DNA from: Pontibacter kalidii
GTDB taxonomy: Bacteria; Bacteroidota; Bacteroidia; Cytophagales; Hymenobacteraceae
Direction: 5' to 3'
Assembly: GCF_026278245.1 (NCBI RefSeq)
Contig: NZ_CP111079.1
Coordinates: 2,048,501-2,112,500, forward strand
DNA: 64,000 nt
Within the stretch, counting starts at the first letter, position 1. Every line of letters begins with the position of its first letter. The position numbers were made by a program, and so were the translations under genes. The notes beneath the pieces are model-generated. The model ran no database searches and was not told the origin of the DNA. It saw only the letters and a program-made list of their open reading frames with translations. Below, piece after piece: positions 34,914 through 43,175 of this stretch.

Positions 34914-36197
34914 TTAGGCCTCCTGCTTCTGCTCCAGCTGGAACAGCGCGCTCAGGCCATGTAGCAGCTCCTCCGACTCACCACGCAGGCAGGCGGCTTT
35001 CAGCTCAATGGCCGGCAGCTTCACGATCTTGTTCAGCATACTTTTGGTAATGGCCTCCACTGCAGCTTTCTCTGCCTCGCCCAGGTTCTTTAGGTAGCGG
35101 GCAAGCTCCTGCTGGCGGATCTCCTCCAGGCGGTTTTTAAACTGCTGCAGCGCCGGCGACATCGCCATCTCCTTTGTCCATACTTTAAACTCCGCCATAG
35201 CCTCCACCACGATCTGCTGCACGGCGGGTACAGAAGCCAGGCGCATTTCCAGGGCGGCAGTGGCCCGGTTGCGGATATTGTCAATGTTCAGCACGCGTAC
35301 GCCTTCCAGCGTCTCCAACTCCGCATCAATGCTACGCGGCATGGATAGGTCGATGAAAAACTTTGGCGTGCGCAGACCTTTGCCTTTCAAGGCGTCTTTG
35401 CTGATGAAAAAGCAGTCGCCGGGCACAGATGATACCACTACATCGGCAATCTTGATCTCCTCCCATACCTGCTCCCAGTACACGGCGGTGGCGCCGGTTT
35501 TCTGCGCCAGTTCCAACGCCTTATGGTGGGTTCTGTTAGCGATCACAATATTTCTAACCTGGGATTTCTGGAAGTTGTCGCACACGTCGGCGCCAATCTC
35601 CCCTACCCCGATCATGAGCACGCGCGGGTTTTCCATTCCTTTGGTCAGCTCCTCTACCAGCTCCACTGTGGCATATGATACTGAGGCGGCGCCATCATGG
35701 AAAGCTGTCTCGTTCACGGCCTGTTTGTTGGCGGCGAAAATGGTATGCATCAGGCGGTGCAGGAACGGGCCGGCCATGCTGGCGTCTGCCGCCCACTGAT
35801 ACGCCTTCTTTACCTGGTTCAGAATCTGCATATCGCCTACCACCTGCGACTCCAGCCCCAGCGACACATAAAACAGGTGCTTCACCGCCTTCTCGTGATC
35901 AGTTATATTTGTAAAGTATGGCGACACCTCTTTTGTGGCAATAAAGCCCTTCTCCAAAGCGATCAGCTTGATCAGTTCGCGGGAAAGGTCCTGCTCGGAG
36001 GCATAGTATACTTCGGTGCGGTTGCAGGTAGAGAGTACCAGCACATCACGGGCATCTGTGAATTCATTGATCTTATCGAGCAGGTTCTTACAGGCTATCT
36101 CGTTCAACGATACTGCCTCGCGTACGGCAATAGGAGCTATTTTGTAGGATAATGTAAGGGCCTTAAACGTGTGCTGCATGATTTGTTTGTCTCTCAT
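34914..36197 (-). CDS. hemA: Glutamyl-tRNA reductase
   Basis: 427 residues. Reduces Glu-tRNA(Glu) to glutamate-1-semialdehyde, the first committed step of C5-pathway haem synthesis. The active-site motif LSTCNRTEVY gives the nucleophile Cys58; the NADPH-binding domain has LMIGVGEIGADV, and a C-terminal helical dimerisation domain follows. Start taken at 36197; an ATG six codons later (MQHTF) fits the family equally well. The other haem genes are not adjacent. A TGA-N6-TCA palindrome 39 bases upstream suggests control by a CRP/FNR-type protein, encoded next door. Confidence 0.93.
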   Translation of the reverse strand: MRDKQIMQHTFKALTLSYKIAPIAVREAVSLNEIACKNLLDKINEFTDARDVLVLSTCNRTEVYYASEQDLSRELIKLIALEKGFIATKEVSPYFTNITDHEKAVKHLFYVSLGLESQVVGDMQILNQVKKAYQWAADASMAGPFLHRLMHTIFAANKQAVNETAFHDGAASVSYATVELVEELTKGMENPRVLMIGVGEIGADVCDNFQKSQVRNIVIANRTHHKALELAQKTGATAVYWEQVWEEIKIADVVVSSVPGDCFFISKDALKGKGLRTPKFFIDLSMPRSIDAELETLEGVRVLNIDNIRNRATAALEMRLASVPAVQQIVVEAMAEFKVWTKEMAMSPALQQFKNRLEEIRQQELARYLKNLGEAEKAAVEAITKSMLNKIVKLPAIELKAACLRGESEELLHGLSALFQLEQKQEA

Positions 36198-36235
36198 TTA
36201 CCTTGCAAATTTCTACATTCCCTGCTGCAGGTAAT

Positions 36236-36249
36236 ATGACAAATATCAT
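36236..36249. promoter_or_regulatory. Candidate CRP/FNR-type operator upstream of hemA
   Basis: ATGACAAATATCAT: two TGA/TCA half-sites six bases apart, the spacing used by the CRP/FNR family, in AT-rich flanks, 39 bases upstream of the hemA start. It matches the perfect version near 41148-41167. The receiver-CRP fusion gene at 36635 lies between the two sites. Confidence 0.55.
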
Positions 36250-36384
36250 TTATTCAGGCGTTTTATATCAGTTATAGCAAGAAAGAGGCGGAATTTATAC
36301 TTTGTTGAGCACAACTGCCCTGCCTGTTTAAGGCTGTGATCAGGACACAAGTATAAAATGCCAGTTGCTCGCAGTTGCGCTTCG

Positions 36385-36521
36385 GGATTTGTAATCCAGA
36401 AGCACGTACTATGAGGATTTGTAATCCGACTCAGCTTTTAGCCGCAGCTCTACGTCTGGCAAAGTATAAAACAGGATTACAAATCCTGATGACACCATAC
36501 TTCCGGATTGCAAATCCGGAA
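36385..36521. repeat. Cluster of four GGATTTGTAATCC-type short palindromes
   Basis: Units at 36385-36397, 36415-36427, 36474-36486 and 36505-36517, each GGATT-(TGT, TGC or complement)-AATCC. The last one extends to a 21-bp perfect palindrome (36501-36521). The first two and last two are in opposite orientation. More copies occur at 54369 and 54399. They look like REP-type hairpins. Confidence 0.7.
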
Positions 36522-36577
36522 GAGCGAAGTCAGCTATACGACACCGCTCTTTTCTCCAAAAGAAGGGTTGCTACAAA

Positions 36578-36607
36578 AAGAAAAGAGACGCAATGGCTTG
36601 CGTCTCT
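36578..36607 (-). terminator. Rho-independent terminator of signalling operon
   Basis: Stem AGAGACGCAA / TTGCGTCTCT (36584-36593 with 36598-36607), loop of four; on the minus strand it is followed by TTTTCTTTTT. Located 28 bases after the end of the receiver-CRP gene. Confidence 0.85.
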
Positions 36608-36634
36608 ACTGATACTTTTACACTTCGCTGAGTC

Positions 36635-37696
36635 CTAATTCCGCATGCGCTCCAGCTTGCTCAGGTTCAATATGGTGATGCGGCTTCCCTGGCTGTCGAT
36701 GAGTTTTTCATCTTTAAAATCGGCGAGGGTGCGGATAACGGTTTCTTTGGAGGCGCCTACTATACTTGCCAGGTCCTCGCGGGAAATGGCGATCTGTTTC
36801 GTGCTTCCCTCCTCCCGCTGGTACTGCTTCTCCACCAACAACAGGGCCTCTGCCACGCGCTTGCGCACCGAGTTGTAAGCCAGTTTCAGCAGGCGCTCCT
36901 CACGGTCGGCCAGGTTATCCGAAAGAATTTTGATGAACTTGCTGGCTACATCGCGGTTGCGGTGCAGCAGCGAGAAAAAATCCTCTTTCGGGATGATGTA
37001 CACTTCCGACTCCTCCAGCGCCATGGCCGATTCGCGGTAATGGCTTTCCTCCAGCAGGTCGAGGTAGCCGATAAAGTCACCTTCTTTGTAAAGGTGGGTG
37101 ATATACTCGCGTCCCTCCTCATTGGATTTAAATGTTTTTACGCGGCCCTTGTTCAGCAGGTATAGTGAGTTAGGCCTGTTGCCCTCCATAAACAGGTACT
37201 GCTTTTTCTTCAGCACCGAAAGGCGGCGCTCTGCCGAGATGAGCTGTTCCAACTCTTCGTAGCCCTTGGCCTCCTCAATAAACTCCTCCAGGCCCTCCGC
37301 GCTCTTCTTGAAATTAGCCTGCAGGATCTCGTTCTTCTTCAGGCGCATCTCAATAGCATCCAGCAACTCCACATCGTCGAAAGGCTTGGTCAGGTAATCA
37401 TCGGCCCCCAGGTTCATACCTTTCCTGAAATCCTCCTTCTCGGTTTTCGCTGTCAGGAAGATAAAGGGTATACTTGCCGTAGAAGGATCCTTGCTGAGCA
37501 GGTGCAGTACGCCATAGCCATCCAGCTGGGGCATCATGATATCGCAGATGATCAAATCGGGCTGCTCTTTCCGGGCCAGGTCCACGCCTACCCTGCCATT
37601 CTCGGCCTCCACCACAGTGTAATTAGCCAGCGACAGGATCTCAGCCGTGTTTTCCCTGATCTCAGGGTTGTCTTCTATCAATAATATCTTTTTCAT
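36635..37696 (-). CDS. Response regulator with CRP/FNR-type output (receiver-cNMP-HTH fusion)
   Basis: 353 residues. Receiver domain at 1-120 with acidic pocket LIEDN, phospho-acceptor Asp in LIICDIMMPQLDG and Lys in DDYLTKPF. Then a linker helix, a cNMP-binding-like beta-roll (about 145-265, KKKQYLFMEGNRPNSLYLLNKGRVKTF) and a Crp-type winged helix (about 270-350, ISREDLASIVGASKETVIRTLADFKDEKLI). It should bind TGA-N6-TCA-type DNA when phosphorylated. It overlaps the upstream receiver-kinase gene by four bases. The fusion replaces the FixJ plus FixK pair of rhizobial oxygen control, by inference. Confidence 0.93.
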   Translation of the reverse strand: MKKILLIEDNPEIRENTAEILSLANYTVVEAENGRVGVDLARKEQPDLIICDIMMPQLDGYGVLHLLSKDPSTASIPFIFLTAKTEKEDFRKGMNLGADDYLTKPFDDVELLDAIEMRLKKNEILQANFKKSAEGLEEFIEEAKGYEELEQLISAERRLSVLKKKQYLFMEGNRPNSLYLLNKGRVKTFKSNEEGREYITHLYKEGDFIGYLDLLEESHYRESAMALEESEVYIIPKEDFFSLLHRNRDVASKFIKILSDNLADREERLLKLAYNSVRKRVAEALLLVEKQYQREEGSTKQIAISREDLASIVGASKETVIRTLADFKDEKLIDSQGSRITILNLSKLERMRN

Positions 37697-38925
37697 GCTT
37701 CAGCGATGTTTGGAAAAGTTATGGTGAAGGTAGTGCCTTTGTCAAGCTCACTGTCATAGGCCATGGTACCGTTCATGATCTCCACATACCTTTTTACAAT
37801 GTTCAGCCCCAGGCCAGTGCCCTGTATGTTGGTAACATTCTGGGCCCTGAAGAACGGGGTGAACAGATGCACCTGATCCACCTTCGGTATGCCGATGCCC
37901 TGGTCCTGAATGGTTATAGTTAAGGTATCCTGCTCCAGGGCAGTGGTAAAAAGTACCGTTTTGCCCTCTGCCGAGTACTTGCTGCCGTTCGAGAGCAGGT
38001 TGAGCAGAATATTCTTCAGCAGCTGCTTGTCAATGGTCACGGTGTCGTGGTCGCCGGTGTGGCGGTAGTCTATCCGCTGCCCCTTTTTCAGGTAGCCTTT
38101 CATCTCTTCCACAATCTCCCGCACAAATGGCTTCAGGTTAAAGGTGGTGGGTACATTGTAAATACGCCCTTCCTCTATGCGGCTGATAGACAGGAAATCG
38201 TTCAAGATCGTGGTCAGGTTGCTGACTGCCGACTTTATCCGGTCTACGTGCTTCTGCCGTTTCTCATCGTCCTGCTCGGTTTTATACTTGCTGACCAGGG
38301 AGGCAGAGGAAAGGACCGTACTCAACGGCGTTCTGAACTCATGCGAGGCAATGGTCACAAACCGGGACTTCAGCTCGTTGAGCTCCCGCTCCTTCTGCAG
38401 TGCTTTCTGGATTTCCTGTTGCGCCTCCTCCAGGCTGCGGTTGGTGTGCTCCAACTTGGTTATGGCCTCAGCCAGTTCCTGCGTCCGCGCTTCCACCCGC
38501 TGCTCCAGCTCCGCATTGAGCTTCTGTATCTCTCCCAGGCTCTTGGCATGCTCCAGACTATACCGTATGGATCGCTCCAGGTCGAAGGGGTTGAAGGTGC
38601 CTTTCACGAGGTAATCCATCGCGCCTACCTTCATGGCTCTTTCATCCGTCTCGCGGTCGCTTTGGCCGGTAAGAAGTATAAAGGGGGCTTTGGTACCTTC
38701 CTCCACGGCCTTGGTGATCAGTTCCAGGCCATCGTGTGCGCCCAGGTAATAATCCACCAGGTACACATCATACGTATCCTGCCGTATCAGCTCCTGCGCT
38801 TCCTCAAACGACGAAGACCAATCGAGCACGAAGCTACGCCCGGGGATATCATCCATAATATCCCGGGTGATGATGTAGTCATCCTCATCGTCGTCTACCA
38901 GCAGAACTTTGATCTTATCAGGCAT
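37693..38925 (-). CDS. Receiver-histidine kinase hybrid
   Basis: 410 residues. An N-terminal receiver (1-125; phospho-acceptor Asp in VYLVDYYLGAHDG) is followed by a long coiled coil (about 130-195, rich in Glu, Gln and Leu), a HisKA domain with ASHEFRTPLSTVLSS, and an ATP-binding domain with LLNLLSNGSKYS, DQGIGIP and GTGLGLNIVKRYV. Receiver at the N-terminus and kinase at the C-terminus suit a relay intermediate. No membrane segments, so cytosolic. It overlaps the receiver-CRP gene (ATGA) and is preceded by a tandem/inverted repeat. Confidence 0.92.
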   Translation of the reverse strand: MPDKIKVLLVDDDEDDYIITRDIMDDIPGRSFVLDWSSSFEEAQELIRQDTYDVYLVDYYLGAHDGLELITKAVEEGTKAPFILLTGQSDRETDERAMKVGAMDYLVKGTFNPFDLERSIRYSLEHAKSLGEIQKLNAELEQRVEARTQELAEAITKLEHTNRSLEEAQQEIQKALQKERELNELKSRFVTIASHEFRTPLSTVLSSASLVSKYKTEQDDEKRQKHVDRIKSAVSNLTTILNDFLSISRIEEGRIYNVPTTFNLKPFVREIVEEMKGYLKKGQRIDYRHTGDHDTVTIDKQLLKNILLNLLSNGSKYSAEGKTVLFTTALEQDTLTITIQDQGIGIPKVDQVHLFTPFFRAQNVTNIQGTGLGLNIVKRYVEIMNGTMAYDSELDKGTTFTITFPNIAEA

Positions 38926-39071
38926 AGTTGGGAGTTAGAGAGTTAGAGAGTTGGGGAGTTAGAGAGTTAAAGAGTTAAAACGTGATGCTGTTAAGGTGCT
39001 AATGTAGCAGCTATTAGTGGCGGCTTTCTTCCTCAACTCCCCAACTCCTAAACGCCTAAACTCTCTAACTC
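38926..39071. repeat. Tandem GAGTTAGAG words with inverted copies
   Basis: The left part (38930-38978) repeats GAGTTAGAGAGTTAGAGAGTT in tandem; the right part (39031-39072) carries the complement, AACTCCCCAACTCC...AACTCTCTAACTCC. A transcript would fold into a long stem between the receiver and receiver-kinase genes. The spacer between the arms is about 50 bases. Confidence 0.7.
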
Positions 39072-39524
39072 CTACGGTTTTGGCAGTTCTACGATCTCGA
39101 ACCAGTACTTGCTCAGGGTCTTCATCACATCCACCAGCGAGGCGAAGGTAACCGGCTTGGTAATAAAGGAGCTCACGCCCAGGTCGTAGGTGCGCAGAAT
39201 GTCTTCCTCGGCTTTGGAGGTGGTCAGCACCACCACCGGGATCACGCGCAGGTAGTCGTCGGACTTTATCTCCTTCAGTGCCTCGCGACCATCCTTCTTC
39301 GGCATGTTCAGGTCCAGCAGGATCAGGCCCGGCGTCGGGAATTTTTCCTTGTCGGCAAACTTGCCACGGTTGTGCAGGTAGTCTAATAACTCCTCCCCGT
39401 TCTCTACAAACTGCACATGATTTTTAAGGCGGCTCTCGTCGAGGGCCTCTTTCACCAGCATGCGGTCTTCTGCGTCGTCGTCGGCAATAAGTATCACTAT
39501 CGTTCTTCTGTTGTTGGCGCTCAT
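39072..39524 (-). CDS. Single-domain response regulator
   Basis: 150 residues, a stand-alone receiver: ADDDAEDRMLVKEAL, phospho-acceptor Asp in GLILLDLNMPKKDG, VVVLTTSKAEED and the Lys in FITKPVTF. It has no output domain, so it is probably a phosphate shuttle or works by protein contact. It begins six bases after the stop of the PAS kinase gene and should be translated with it. Confidence 0.92.
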   Translation of the reverse strand: MSANNRRTIVILIADDDAEDRMLVKEALDESRLKNHVQFVENGEELLDYLHNRGKFADKEKFPTPGLILLDLNMPKKDGREALKEIKSDDYLRVIPVVVLTTSKAEEDILRTYDLGVSSFITKPVTFASLVDVMKTLSKYWFEIVELPKP

Positions 39525-39530
39525 AAAACT

Positions 39531-41072
39531 TTACTGTACGTGCTTTTTGGCTAAGGTAATGATAAAAGTGGTGCCTACCCCTGCCTGGCTGCGGGCCGTA
39601 ATGTCGCCGCCATGGCGCACGGCAATCTTGCGGCAAATGGCAAGCCCTATACCCGAGCCCTCGTACTTCTGCCCTTCCAGGCGCTGGAAAATGTTAAAGA
39701 TACGGTCGAGGTACTTTTCATCAAAGCCGATGCCGTTGTCCTGTATCCTGATCTCCACCAGCTCGTCGCCAGGCGTGGAAGTTAAGTGTGCCTTCGGCTG
39801 CAGCTCCCTTGCTGTTATGTTTATCTCCGGGGTAACTCCCTCCTTGCGGAATTTAATGGCGTTGCTGACCAGGTTCTGGAACAGTTGGCGCATTTGCGTG
39901 GGGTCGCCCTCTATCGAAGGCAGGTGCATATGCGTAATTTTGGCTCCTGTCTTCTCTATCATGATCTCCAGGTCCGAAAGCACCTCTTCCAGCACTTTCT
40001 CCAGGTCTACCATGACATACGGTTTCGTTTTGGAGGTAACCCTTGAGAAGTCCAGCAGGTCGTTTATCAGGTTCTGCATGCGCGAGGCAGCGTTCAGCAT
40101 ACGGTCCACGTAATCCTTGCCCTGGTCGCTCAGCTTTTCATATTCCTTCGTCTTCAGCCTGTCGCCGAAGGCCTGTATCTTACGCAGCGGCTCCTGCAAA
40201 TCATGCGACGATACGTAGGCGAAATCCTGCAGCTCGCGGTTGCTGCGCTCCAGCTCGGCGGCGTAGCGTCGCAGGCGCTCCTCGCTCAGTTTCTGCTGGG
40301 TAATGTCATGGATAAAGCCGGTGTATACTTTGCGGTCGGTCAGGTATACTTCGCTGATGCTCAGGTAGAGCGGAAAAACCATCCCGTTCTTCTTCAAGCC
40401 TGACACCTCGCGGCCAATGCCGATGATGCGCTTCTCACCGGTTTCGTGGTAGTGCTGCATGTAGTTATCGTGCAGGCTGCGGTCTGGCTCGGGCATCAGC
40501 ATGTTTATCTTCTGCCCGATCAGCTCACGCTCCTCGTATTGGAAGAGCCTGGCGGCAGCCGGGTTTACCATCTCGATCACCCCACGCGTATCGATGGTGA
40601 TAATGCCATCCACCGCCGTTTGTATAATCGAATTGATGCGGCTCTCGCTCTCGCGCAGGCGCTCCTCAGTTTTCTTAAGGTCCGTGATGTCGTGCACGAT
40701 GCCCGTGAAAATGGTCTTGTCCTCCAGCTTCACTTCGGCTATGCTCAGGAAAAAAGGGAAAAGCTTGCCTGTCTTTTTCTTGCCCAGCACCTCGCGCCCC
40801 TTGCCTATTATCTGGCCAACGCCTGTTTTTCTGTAGCGGGCAATGTAGCCGTCGTGCAGGCTATGGTCGGGTTCCGGCATCAGCATGCTCACGTTCTGGC
40901 CGATCATCTCCTCCGGCTCATAGCCGAAGATGCGGGCAGCGGCCGGGTTGGCGCTTTCCATAATGCCACGGGCGTCGATGGTGATGATGCCGTCCACGGC
41001 TGTGTCGATAATAGCCTTAAGCCTGGTCCGGCTCTCTTTGTTCTCCTTATTTAGATGCTTCTTTTCTTCCAA
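39531..41072 (-). CDS. Histidine kinase with two FixL-like haem-PAS domains
   Basis: 513 residues, no membrane segments. Two PAS domains (about 15-130 and 143-258) resemble each other closely and the oxygen-sensing PAS of FixL. Each keeps the histidine that binds haem in FixL (His73 in LHDGYIARY, His201 in LHDNYMQHY) and, exactly 20 residues later, the oxygen-pocket arginine (Arg93, Arg221) within IIGxGRE. The kinase core has YVSSHDLQEPLRKI (His290), LVSNAIKFRK, DNGIGFD and GSGIGLAICRKI. It should sense oxygen or another haem ligand and phosphorylate the adjacent receivers. The haem assignment is from motifs, not measured. Confidence 0.88.
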   Translation of the reverse strand: MEEKKHLNKENKESRTRLKAIIDTAVDGIITIDARGIMESANPAAARIFGYEPEEMIGQNVSMLMPEPDHSLHDGYIARYRKTGVGQIIGKGREVLGKKKTGKLFPFFLSIAEVKLEDKTIFTGIVHDITDLKKTEERLRESESRINSIIQTAVDGIITIDTRGVIEMVNPAAARLFQYEERELIGQKINMLMPEPDRSLHDNYMQHYHETGEKRIIGIGREVSGLKKNGMVFPLYLSISEVYLTDRKVYTGFIHDITQQKLSEERLRRYAAELERSNRELQDFAYVSSHDLQEPLRKIQAFGDRLKTKEYEKLSDQGKDYVDRMLNAASRMQNLINDLLDFSRVTSKTKPYVMVDLEKVLEEVLSDLEIMIEKTGAKITHMHLPSIEGDPTQMRQLFQNLVSNAIKFRKEGVTPEINITARELQPKAHLTSTPGDELVEIRIQDNGIGFDEKYLDRIFNIFQRLEGQKYEGSGIGLAICRKIAVRHGGDITARSQAGVGTTFIITLAKKHVQ

Positions 41073-41147
41073 AGGGATGAGTTTTTTATAAAGATAAAGA
41101 CTACGTCCGCAACAAACAAAGCTCCATAGGCCATTTTAAATATATAA

Positions 41148-41167
41148 AAAATGACAGATGTCATTCT
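41148..41167. promoter_or_regulatory. Candidate CRP/FNR-type operator in divergent control region
   Basis: Perfect palindrome AATGACA-GA-TGTCATT, containing TGA-N6-TCA, in an A/T-rich setting; position accurate to a few bases. It lies about 80-95 bp before the start of the PAS kinase gene and about 195 bp before the divergent 604-residue gene. Paired with the hemA site at 36236. Confidence 0.6.
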
Positions 41168-41360
41168 GTACGCTGACGCTACTCATATTAACCCGCCCGC
41201 CTCCGCCGTACCTTGTGTTGCATTATTGCTGCCGCTTTTCAGCAGGGCTTATACGTTGTCTGACACCCATTTACACTGTATGTATACTTTGTGAAAAGGC
41301 TGTCGGACCACCTAAAATACGATAAAAATTCATTTTCATACTTAGTACATTTCAGCCACC

Positions 41361-43175
41361 ATGGTACAATCATCACCGCACATGTTCCACATCCCAGTAA
41401 TGGGTCTGGCCTTTTCAATTGATTCACCCCTTAAGGTTGCCCGGTTCGGCATCTCCTCCGTAGCCTCGCTCAGCGACGACGCCCTGATGGAGTATACCCG
41501 CGAGCACTACAGCCAGCTGTACCAAAGGCCTTATCAGCTTATTACGACAAAGGAAGAGGATTACAGGGCCAGGCGCGTAACTGCTTTCCTGAACCTGACG
41601 GATGAACTGGTGAAGCTGCAGGTAGAAGACATCCGCCGGCAGGAGTTTGCTCCCGAAACTGAACTGACCAAGTATTTTACAATGCTGCCGGGCAACTCCC
41701 CGCTGAGGGCAAAGTATGAACTGATGCTGCAGACAGAGAATCCGGCGCAGAAAGAGGCACTACAACTGGAACTGCGCGGGGCCGTGGTGGCCGGAAGTAT
41801 AGATGTGAACATCATGACCAAGCTGGACCGCGTGAACTACGATAAAGAAGGAATGCCGCTGCCGCAGGAGTACTCCGATGCCCTTGCCGCCTTGCGTGGT
41901 TTTGCCCAAAGTACCGTGAAATCCTCCGTCATCTTCTCGGCTGGCATGAACATGCGCCTCTACGGTTACCTGGATCAGTTTCCGTGCTTTTTACCGAATG
42001 CCGCAGGAGAATTTGAGAAAAAAGTGATCATAAAAGTGAGCGACTACCGCTCTGCCATGGTGCAGGGTAAGATCCTGGCCAAGAAAGGCATCTGGGTGTC
42101 GGAATTCCGTATTGAGTCGGGCCTGAATTGCGGGGGCCATGCCTTTGCCACCGACGGCTACCTGATCGGCCCGATCCTGGAAGAGTTCAGGCAGAACCGC
42201 GCGGCGCTGCGCGAGGAGCTCTACAGCCTCTTGAGCTCTGCCCTGGCCGCCAAGGGCCTTCAGGTGCCTCACGTAGTACCAGCCCAGCGCCTGACAGTGC
42301 AGGGGGGCATCGGCACTGCGCAGGAAGACGCTTTCCTGAAGCAGCACTACGGCGTGGATGCCACCGGCTGGGGCACCCCGTTCCTACTCGTACCGGAAGC
42401 CACCACCGTGGATGAGCCTACCTTGCAGCAACTGGTAAAAGCCACCCATGATGATTTATACTTAAGCCCGATATCGCCGCTTGGCGTGCCCTTTAATGCC
42501 CTACGTGGCACCTCCAGCGAGCTGCAGAAGCAGCAGCGCATAAACCGCAACAAGCCCGGCAGCCCCTGCGAGAAAAAGCACCTGGTGTCTAACACAGAAT
42601 TCACGGAGGAGCCTATCTGCACAGCCTCACGCAAGTACCAGCGCCGCAAGCTGGAGCAGCTGCAGGCCCAGCAGCTGGCACCCGAAGTATACAAAGCCGA
42701 GGAGGCAAAGGTGCTGGAAAAAGAGTGCCTCTGCGATGGGCTGGCCACCTCTGCCCTGCTGCTGTTCAACATGACTAAAAAAGCGGCCACCAAAGCCGTG
42801 ATTATTTGCCCCGGTCCTAATCTGGCCTACTTCTCCGGCATCTTTAAGCTGCACGAGATGGTGGGCCACATCTACGGCCGCTTTAACGCCCTGAACCATA
42901 CCTACCGCCCGCACATGTTCGTCAACGAGCTGAAGATGTACGTAGACTATTGGAAAAAGAAAAAGGACGAGCAGCTGGAAGAACTGACAGACAAGCAGCA
43001 GAAGTACCTGCAAAACTTCCGCAGCAACCTGCAGGAGGGCATCACCTACTATAAACAGCTCTTGCCAACCCTTTTCAAGGATCAGCTGGAGCGGCAGGTG
43101 ATCATGCTGGAGGAGCTGCTGGAGTATGAGGACCAACTGCTGTCCGGCAGCGTGGAGAAGGCCGTGGCGGTGTAG
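41361..43175 (+). CDS. Conserved-looking 604-residue protein of unknown function with Cys motifs
   Basis: 604 residues; no signal peptide or membrane span. The start resembles a TIM-barrel or nitronate-monooxygenase-like N-terminus (HIPVMGLAFSIDSPLKVARFGISSVASL), but no standard family is recognised. Distinct cysteine motifs are SGLNCGGHAFAT, GSPCEKKHLV, EEPICTASRKY and KECLCDGLATSALL, which could hold a metal or Fe-S centre. The C-terminal 120 residues are helical with charged coiled-coil character. It is divergent from the haem-PAS operon and shares its CRP-like site, so it may belong to the oxygen response. The function is not assigned. Confidence 0.75.
   Translation: MVQSSPHMFHIPVMGLAFSIDSPLKVARFGISSVASLSDDALMEYTREHYSQLYQRPYQLITTKEEDYRARRVTAFLNLTDELVKLQVEDIRRQEFAPETELTKYFTMLPGNSPLRAKYELMLQTENPAQKEALQLELRGAVVAGSIDVNIMTKLDRVNYDKEGMPLPQEYSDALAALRGFAQSTVKSSVIFSAGMNMRLYGYLDQFPCFLPNAAGEFEKKVIIKVSDYRSAMVQGKILAKKGIWVSEFRIESGLNCGGHAFATDGYLIGPILEEFRQNRAALREELYSLLSSALAAKGLQVPHVVPAQRLTVQGGIGTAQEDAFLKQHYGVDATGWGTPFLLVPEATTVDEPTLQQLVKATHDDLYLSPISPLGVPFNALRGTSSELQKQQRINRNKPGSPCEKKHLVSNTEFTEEPICTASRKYQRRKLEQLQAQQLAPEVYKAEEAKVLEKECLCDGLATSALLLFNMTKKAATKAVIICPGPNLAYFSGIFKLHEMVGHIYGRFNALNHTYRPHMFVNELKMYVDYWKKKKDEQLEELTDKQQKYLQNFRSNLQEGITYYKQLLPTLFKDQLERQVIMLEELLEYEDQLLSGSVEKAVAV

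Follow-up and report, generated by a model that had tools for sequence, protein, structure and literature searches.

A predicted low-oxygen phosphorelay in Pontibacter kalidii with a FixL-like sensor kinase, a receiver-CRP fusion and paired operators 22 bp apart

Introduction

Few descriptions seem to exist of how Bacteroidota outside the gut regulate their genes at low oxygen. A stretch of 64,000 nucleotides from Pontibacter kalidii (contig NZ_CP111079.1, positions 2,048,501 to 2,112,500 of the forward strand; hereafter the window) carries four signalling genes and, next to them, a gene for glutamyl-tRNA reductase, here called hemA2, and raises the question which signal these genes perceive and which promoters they control. 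A sequence-only reading of the window had proposed an oxygen or NO/CO circuit that has a haem-synthesis target of its own and whose wiring differs from that of the rhizobial FixLJ-FixK cascade. Our analysis bears this out: a conserved operator before hemA2 which the other hemA of Pontibacter lacks, paired operators before the genes of the cbb3 oxidase, before nirK and before the circuit itself and, in some relatives, synteny with cbb3, copA or hemN genes all point to such a circuit. We conclude, with a probability of roughly 80%, that the four genes form a low-oxygen (possibly also NO) sensing phosphorelay which drives a regulon marked by paired operators. The genome of the window (5.05 Mb) is labelled G000 in what follows; other genomes carry labels beginning with G and fetched loci labels beginning with L.

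Gene order of the locus

Read along the minus strand from 41072 to 36635, the genes follow one another in the order double-PAS kinase, lone receiver, receiver-kinase and receiver-CRP. The gene places and residue numbers of the sequence-only reading hold, and all genes were confirmed on the minus strand. The receiver-CRP protein has its closest named locus in P. flavimaris (96%).

39531..41072, minus strand: FixL-like cytoplasmic sensor kinase (Pfam: PAS1, PAS2, HisKA, HATPase)
40680-41030, minus strand: PAS1 of this kinase, amino acids 15-131 (Pfam), with His73 at 40854-40856 and Arg93 at 40794-40796
40302-40637, minus strand: PAS2 of this kinase, amino acids 146-257 (Pfam), with His201 at 40470-40472 and Arg221 at 40410-40412
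39072..39524, minus strand: lone receiver protein, CheY-like, without cysteine (Pfam Response_reg)
37693..38925, minus strand: receiver-HisKA-HATPase protein, the receiver-kinase (Pfam); its stop overlaps the receiver-CRP start
36635..37696, minus strand: receiver-CRP, the output protein, with a receiver (amino acids 4-116) and a CRP/FNR-type cyclic-nucleotide-binding (cNMP) fold and helix-turn-helix (amino acids 162-351; Pfam)
34914..36197, minus strand: hemA2, second glutamyl-tRNA reductase, predicted target (TIGR01035, 310.6 bits against a cut-off of 209.55)
36236..36249, minus strand: predicted TGAY-N4-RTCA operator of hemA2, ATGATATTTGTCAT (motif scoring)
41152..41185: paired operators, centres 22 bp apart, one mismatch, between the kinase gene (80 bp away) and the divergent gene at 41361 (175 bp away)

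The unit recurs: FixL-like kinase, lone receiver, receiver-kinase and receiver-CRP lie together in 62 of 80 loci. In this count L056, a truncated contig, is filed as "other", and in the count of operator spacing below it stands with the four-gene group.

FixL-type pocket residues in both PAS domains

Each PAS domain had been noted to hold a histidine in an HD-Y motif and an arginine 20 residues further on. In an alignment that needs no gaps both pairs, His73/Arg93 and His201/Arg221, fall on His200/Arg220 of Bradyrhizobium FixL, and the agreement extends to the rest of the pocket, as both domains match FixL His200, Asp201, Tyr203, Ile215, Ile216, Arg220, Leu236 and Ile238, including the distal Ile/Leu/Ile set (I215, L236, I238). 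We take these residues to serve haem and O2 binding in FixL. PAS1 is identical to the Bradyrhizobium FixL haem domain at 56 and PAS2 at 55 of 118 positions (~47%), and the two domains are identical to each other at 72 of 118. Deviations from FixL are Lys for Ile218 and Gln for His214 in PAS1, and His for Arg206 and Arg for His214 in PAS2. The best PDB sequence matches of the sensor domains, for the whole kinase and for PAS1 alone, are the Bradyrhizobium and Rhizobium FixL haem domains; FixL haem domains are also the best PDB fold matches of the AlphaFold models, whose mean predicted local distance difference test (pLDDT) is 71.7 for PAS1 and 75.2 for PAS2.

We aligned 61 orthologous kinases, leaving out L087, which was examined separately. 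In PAS2 the His, Asp, Tyr, I216, R221 and L237 are kept in 61/61, and I239 is Ile in 53 and Val in 8; His, Asp and Tyr of PAS1 are kept in 57 of the 58 orthologues that have this domain. Because of this conservation the match to the FixL pocket is not due to chance. We also surveyed the homologous PAS stretches of the fetched loci, 145 in all, of which 4 were too short to be read; the window's kinase is counted twice via the overlapping loci L106 and L107. Among the remaining 141 domains, 123 have His, Asp, Arg and the I/L/(I or V) triad together, 16 have the His but neither Arg nor the full triad, and in 2 both His and Arg are missing. The full-pocket domains come from 61 four-gene loci, from L080 and from the window's kinase via L106/L107. 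Fifteen of the His-only domains belong to kinases beside receiver-CRP in loci outside the four-gene group, and the sixteenth is that of the first kinase of L087. The full pocket set moves as a block. Since His-only domains exist, the histidine alone is not diagnostic and the full set alone counts; the spacing of the histidine by itself was rejected as proof of haem.

The FixL pocket is thus found in 61 of the 62 four-gene loci. Several observations weigh against haem-based sensing here. In L087 (5361-6851, plus strand; Flammeovirga aprica) the first kinase of the four-gene unit has the His without Arg or triad, so that the unit can run on another sensor. A Lys replaces FixL Ile218 in PAS1 of 45 of 58 orthologues, and the PAS1 pocket is lost in L066. 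The pLDDT of the models drops to blocks of 44-61 in the very segment that holds the haem His, and the PAS2 model superposes on the FixL tandem structure at no better than 6.8-6.9 A, as against ~3.3 A for single FixL domains. As the kinases of L072, L073 and L077 have a single PAS and PAS1 of L066 has degenerated, PAS2 looks like the essential sensor. Haem binding, with O2, NO or CO as ligand, is predicted from the pocket residues.

Paired operators and their promoters

Palindromes resembling TGAY-N4-RTCA upstream of the kinase operon, hemA2, ccoN and copA were first spotted by eye. When scored as a motif, a site of at least 7.5 precedes ccoN in 13/15 cases (reversed motif 0/15), nirK in 6/6 and nrdJ in 7/12 readable relatives (reversed motif 0 in each; L186 and L192 were not readable and were left out of the nrdJ and nirK counts). 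A TTTG centred 35 bp from the centre of the site is found in 50/50 hemA promoters and in 13 of the 14 ccoN promoters having a site. We take this TTTG to be the Bacteroidota -7 element (TAnnTTTG); if so, the operator lies near -40 to -42, which is an activator position, as CRP/FNR activators sit near -41.5.

The sites come in pairs. A second site (score at least 6) lies 22 bp upstream of the first in 31/50 hemA, 29/36 kinase, 12/14 ccoN and 5/6 nirK promoters, where 0.4% would be expected at one fixed offset; 37 kinase promoters have a site, and in one of them the position of the partner falls outside the stretch. When all pairs with at most one mismatch and 14-45 bp between centres were collected from the 80 loci, 84 were spaced by 22 bp, 6 by 23 bp and at most 2 by any other distance. 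The 41 Pontibacter genomes hold 291 pairs at 22 bp compared with 21 for the reversed control, with more pairs than control in 39 genomes, equal numbers in 1 and fewer in 1. The 17 loci of distant Bacteroidota with two-gene and other arrangements contain 11 exact 22-bp pairs and 0 for the reversed motif (the locus groups were set by hand). In L078, L081 and L083 a paired operator occupies the intergenic stretch between a PAS-kinase/receiver-CRP operon and a divergent gene for a conserved protein of 126-131 amino acids; in L085 a pair precedes the gene of this protein next to a different neighbour.

The promoter code has its weak places, which we gather here as they count against it. At the looser threshold of 7.0 the ccoN site is found in 14/15 and its reversed control in 8/15. 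The promoter of the four-gene operon itself, before the kinase gene, has a site of at least 7.5 in only 27/61 loci, and kinase-operon promoters show no fixed distance to a TTTG; among promoters having a site, TTTG at 35 bp is present in only 2/6 for nirK and 3/9 for nrdJ. No second site lies 22 bp upstream in any of the 9 nrdJ promoters having a site; in G000 the nrdJ partner lies 22 bp downstream instead, and a partner on either side is found in 0/11 other readable relatives, so that nrdJ is paired only in G000. Of the Pontibacter genomes, G416 has no pairs and G421 has 2 against 3 in the control. Single sites are not enriched genome-wide, as TGAC-N4-GTCAT gives 21 matches against 25 for the reversed control, and several of the single-site matches fall inside genes. 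Single sites alone therefore prove nothing genome-wide, and the single-site scan was discarded as evidence for a regulon. Only position, conservation and pairing separate the operator signal from chance.

The predicted regulon

In G000 pairs precede the kinase operon, ccoN, ccoG, copA, a usp gene, nirK and nrdJ; 8 pairs were counted and these 7 were located. NirK matches TIGR02376 above the cut-off, and the best family matches of NrdJ are to B12-dependent ribonucleotide reductase, below cut-off and over part of the protein. ccoN was named by TIGR00780, whereas the names of the other cco genes, NosZ, NorB, globin, cytochrome c, usp and D-lactate dehydrogenase were given by eye. The nos-like and norB-like genes have a perfect single site next to them, and further single sites precede ctaA, queD, trhO and a globin-like gene (TrhO, CtaA and QueD were matched to NCBIfam models, CtaA and QueD below their cut-offs). 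G401 has a pair before a D-lactate dehydrogenase-like gene. We also note that nrdJ lies ~9-12 kb from receiver-CRP in G395, G397, G399, G403, G404 and G405.

The nirK sites, which are paired in G000, and the perfect single site by the denitrification-type genes could mean that the circuit serves mainly as a nitrosative or denitrification switch, its PAS domains either no longer binding haem or reporting NO or redox state rather than O2; the FixL haem also binds NO and CO, as PDB titles state. We regard this as unlikely. The FixL pocket is complete including the Arg, and ccoN, ccoG, copA and hemA2 are targets outside denitrification. Moreover G401 (87% complete) has no nirK match at E<=1e-60 and no ccoN over the cut-off, and yet keeps receiver-CRP and the hemA2 site.

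A second hemA as predicted target

The sequence-only reading had stated that hemA flanks the operon. It does lie downstream on the same strand, but it starts 437 bp past the receiver-CRP stop codon with a promoter of its own. G000 has two hemA genes above the family cut-off (TIGR01035), and all 13 Pontibacter genomes examined have two or three. The two proteins of G000 are 52% identical, and in a tree the relay-linked copies form a separate, well-supported clade. For 49 of the 62 four-gene loci the fetched stretch includes hemA.

An operator of the hemA2 type scores at least 7.0 in 50/50 related loci and at least 7.5 in 47/50, compared with 1.2% of shuffles. In whole relative genomes the site precedes hemA2 in 11/11 and hemA1 of Pontibacter in 0/13. 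The occurrence of the site in 50/50 loci and its absence from 13/13 Pontibacter hemA1 promoters rule out that hemA is an accidental neighbour, and hemA2 is a predicted target of the circuit. Outside Pontibacter three of five genes filed as hemA1 (L124, L133, L142) do carry the site; the hemA of L142 groups on the hemA2 side of the tree, with a long branch. It speaks against paired control of hemA2 in P. kalidii itself that its promoter has one clear site and no second site scoring at least 6.5.

Which regulator binds the operators

The only cysteine of receiver-CRP is C51, which lies in the receiver beside the phospho-acceptor Asp, and the protein thus lacks the iron-sulphur (Fe-S) ligands of the FNR type. 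There is, however, a second candidate in G000. A receiver-less FNR paralogue (G000:C1:1633907-1634611, which is L095 14908-15612, minus strand) adjoins the ccoN cluster, carries Cys 8, 11, 21, 22 and 110, is 48% identical to receiver-CRP over the CRP half and has a similar recognition helix, so that it could bind the same sites; its best model is Fnr, below the cut-off (101.5 vs 228). The paired operators could accordingly belong to this paralogue, the four-gene relay controlling something else, and in Rhizobium leguminosarum FnrN and FixK are reported to share one operator (PMC7888657). The distribution of the paralogue makes this quite improbable. It is present in 7 of 13 Pontibacter genomes and absent from G395, G396, G398, G401, G402 and G406; where ccoN was fetched from these six (G395, G396, G398, G402, G406), the ccoN pair is kept in 5/5, and where hemA2 was fetched (G395, G398, G401, G402), its site is kept in 4/4. 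Conversely, G409 and G412, which have an FNR homologue but lack receiver-CRP, show no pair at ccoN, and G409 shows none at hemA either. Pairs also precede the kinase/receiver-CRP operons of some distant Bacteroidota.

Two genomes do not fit this pattern cleanly. G408, with a pair of 7.0 and 7.0 at hemA, holds both receiver-CRP and FNR homologues and therefore does not separate the two regulators, and G410 has receiver-CRP but only a weak partner site at ccoN. As genomes without a close FNR homologue keep their ccoN pairs, receiver-CRP is the likely binder; the pairs likely belong to it on the strength of these few genomes.

Conservation and spread of the relay

In 78 of 80 loci receiver-CRP has a homologue of the receiver-kinase no more than 150 bp upstream of it; the gap is 594 bp in L065 and 1,027 bp in L071. 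This adjacency makes the receiver-kinase, rather than the FixL-like kinase, the probable direct source of phosphate for receiver-CRP. The proposal that the FixJ and FixK steps lie in one polypeptide is to be amended in this sense: a receiver is fused to a CRP-type protein, but the intermediate receiver-kinase had been left out.

Near-full-length matches to receiver-CRP at E<=1e-60 were obtained in 56 of 395 sampled Bacteroidota genomes, with at most five candidates scored per genome. Within the fetched stretches, 8 of the 62 four-gene loci and 7 of the 18 others contain genes of the cbb3 cluster, and 4 more of these 18 contain copA or hemN only (a weak ccoP match in L088 was left out). The relay comes after ccoP-ccoG-ccoH in L055, L057 and L059-L063, all of them Pontibacter loci. 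In distant Bacteroidota the counterpart of the receiver-kinase has a PAS domain instead of the receiver, and this kinase and receiver-CRP are often found beside cbb3 or hemN genes; L070 and L075 of Dyadobacter luticola are examples in which they adjoin the cbb3 cluster. L080 shows a direct fusion between a FixL-like PAS and the kinase that precedes receiver-CRP. Some receiver-CRP homologues are labelled in their source records as "polysaccharide utilization system transcription regulator", a name that finds no support in the operator targets or the observed neighbours.

Other features of the stretch

41361..43175, plus strand: divergent gene, 604 amino acids, possible further regulon member (no Pfam or NCBIfam family at E<=0.001)

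This gene had been included in the range of the circuit, but it is read in the opposite direction and does not belong to the four-gene relay. It was rejected as a relay gene, being in the fetched stretch of just 12 of 62 four-gene loci and one other, and is at most a target. Its homologues in L063 and L079 have 22-bp paired operators (one mismatch) directly upstream, and in some records the protein is annotated as "nitronate monooxygenase family protein". The gap between lone receiver and receiver-kinase (38931-39072) contains an inverted repeat with arms of 43 nt, 77% complementary and 56 nt apart, with AACTC/GAGTT runs; similar runs were seen by eye upstream of ccoN.

Comparison with known systems

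The closest known systems are rhizobial FixL/FixK and NmpRSTU of Myxococcus. With the former the circuit shares the pocket residues and domain identity described above, an output of CRP/FNR fold and an anaerobox-type operator before cbb3 genes. It differs in having two FixL-like PAS domains, an extra lone receiver and receiver-kinase, a receiver fused to the CRP protein, paired operators and hemA2 as target. The family models agree with this distance: the kinase scores 341.6 with sens_FixL_Rhizob (NCBIfam), below the cut-off of 850, and receiver-CRP, which is fused and not stand-alone like FixK, scores 67.2 with TransRegFixKCaul (cut-off 300) and 98.1 with the cAMP receptor model PRK11753 (cut-off 266). 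A FixJ-type partner (receiver and LuxR-type helix-turn-helix) is not in the operon; lone receiver, receiver-kinase and receiver-CRP take its place. With FNR and FnrL the operator core is the same, but receiver-CRP lacks the [4Fe-4S] cysteines. The Caulobacter protein FixT is an Fe-S feedback receiver, and a similar function for the lone receiver was dismissed as it has no Cys.

The hemA gene of Rhodobacter encodes 5-aminolevulinate synthase, unlike hemA2 here, which encodes glutamyl-tRNA reductase. FNR sites at hemA, cco and hemN genes and control of hemA by FnrL are described in Rhodobacter sphaeroides (PMC2908626), and the FNR site at that hemA is a precedent for the target. For R. leguminosarum a FixL-type relay (hFixL-FxkR-FixK) and the one-component FnrN are reported to form one network with shared anaeroboxes, in which FxkR acts by inducing fixK (PMC7888657). 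There FxkR and FixK are separate; in our circuit a single protein combines receiver and CRP, and 6 of the 13 Pontibacter genomes examined lack the FNR paralogue.

The targets of the Myxococcus xanthus system are cbb3, a P-type ATPase and hemN, and it also regulates itself (PMC11841059). It resembles ours in that a haem sensor kinase, a receiver protein, a receiver-HisKA kinase and a DNA-binding response regulator are encoded together. Its sensor is a globin, NmpT has two receivers and the output is NtrC-like with sigma-54, unlike the PAS sensor and CRP output found here.

Proposed mechanism

Computation shows the sensor pocket, the gene order and the operator code with its conservation and targets; the steps that follow, from haem binding through phosphotransfer to activation by receiver-CRP, are inferred from these. 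Haem in PAS2, and probably also in PAS1, of the FixL-like kinase would bind O2. When O2 leaves, the activity of the kinase would change, with phosphate passing to the lone receiver and to the receiver of the receiver-kinase, which would then phosphorylate receiver-CRP. The phosphorylated protein is envisaged to bind as two neighbouring dimers to the paired TGAY-N4-RTCA operators; at 22 bp, two helical turns, the dimers would sit side by side on one face of the DNA and the receivers could join them. From its position near -40 to -42 the promoter-proximal operator would lead to activation, and the genes turned on would be those of the cbb3 oxidase (ccoN, ccoG, copA), nirK, the B12-dependent ribonucleotide reductase, the operon itself and hemA2. 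The latter may supply haem for cbb3, for other cytochromes and for the sensor.

FixL-type PAS kinases are active without O2, and for the sign of the signal we lean slightly towards a positive, FixL-like one. A variant of the same phosphorelay, not exclusive of it, has the haem kinase active with O2 and keeping the receiver-kinase off, so that low O2 releases it. Such double-negative wiring has been proposed for NmpS (PMC11841059), and the receiver-kinase is the same kind of intermediate; the sensor here, however, is a FixL-type PAS and not a globin. We consider this variant plausible but the less probable of the two.

A wider claim is made tentatively, its chances being in our estimate a little short of even. 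Receiver-CRP may be a master low-oxygen regulator of part of the Bacteroidota and may work by a new kind of switch, in which neither an Fe-S cluster nor a cyclic nucleotide but phosphorylation of the fused receiver brings two CRP-type dimers side by side on operators exactly two helical turns apart. The 22-bp paired anaeroboxes would then mark its genes off from those of single-site FNR, and varied sensors (FixL-like double haem-PAS, single haem-PAS, other PAS) would be plugged into the same kinase/receiver-CRP core.

Significance

A literature search limited to openly licensed PMC papers did not find this arrangement. The promoter code of operators paired at 22 bp is a new result, and the operator pair offers a simple genome-wide test for members of the regulon. 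In the circuit as predicted here, the first step of haem synthesis is tied to an oxygen sensor via a dedicated second gene, and FixL-type sensing feeds a relay that has the same parts as the myxobacterial one with other modules at both ends.

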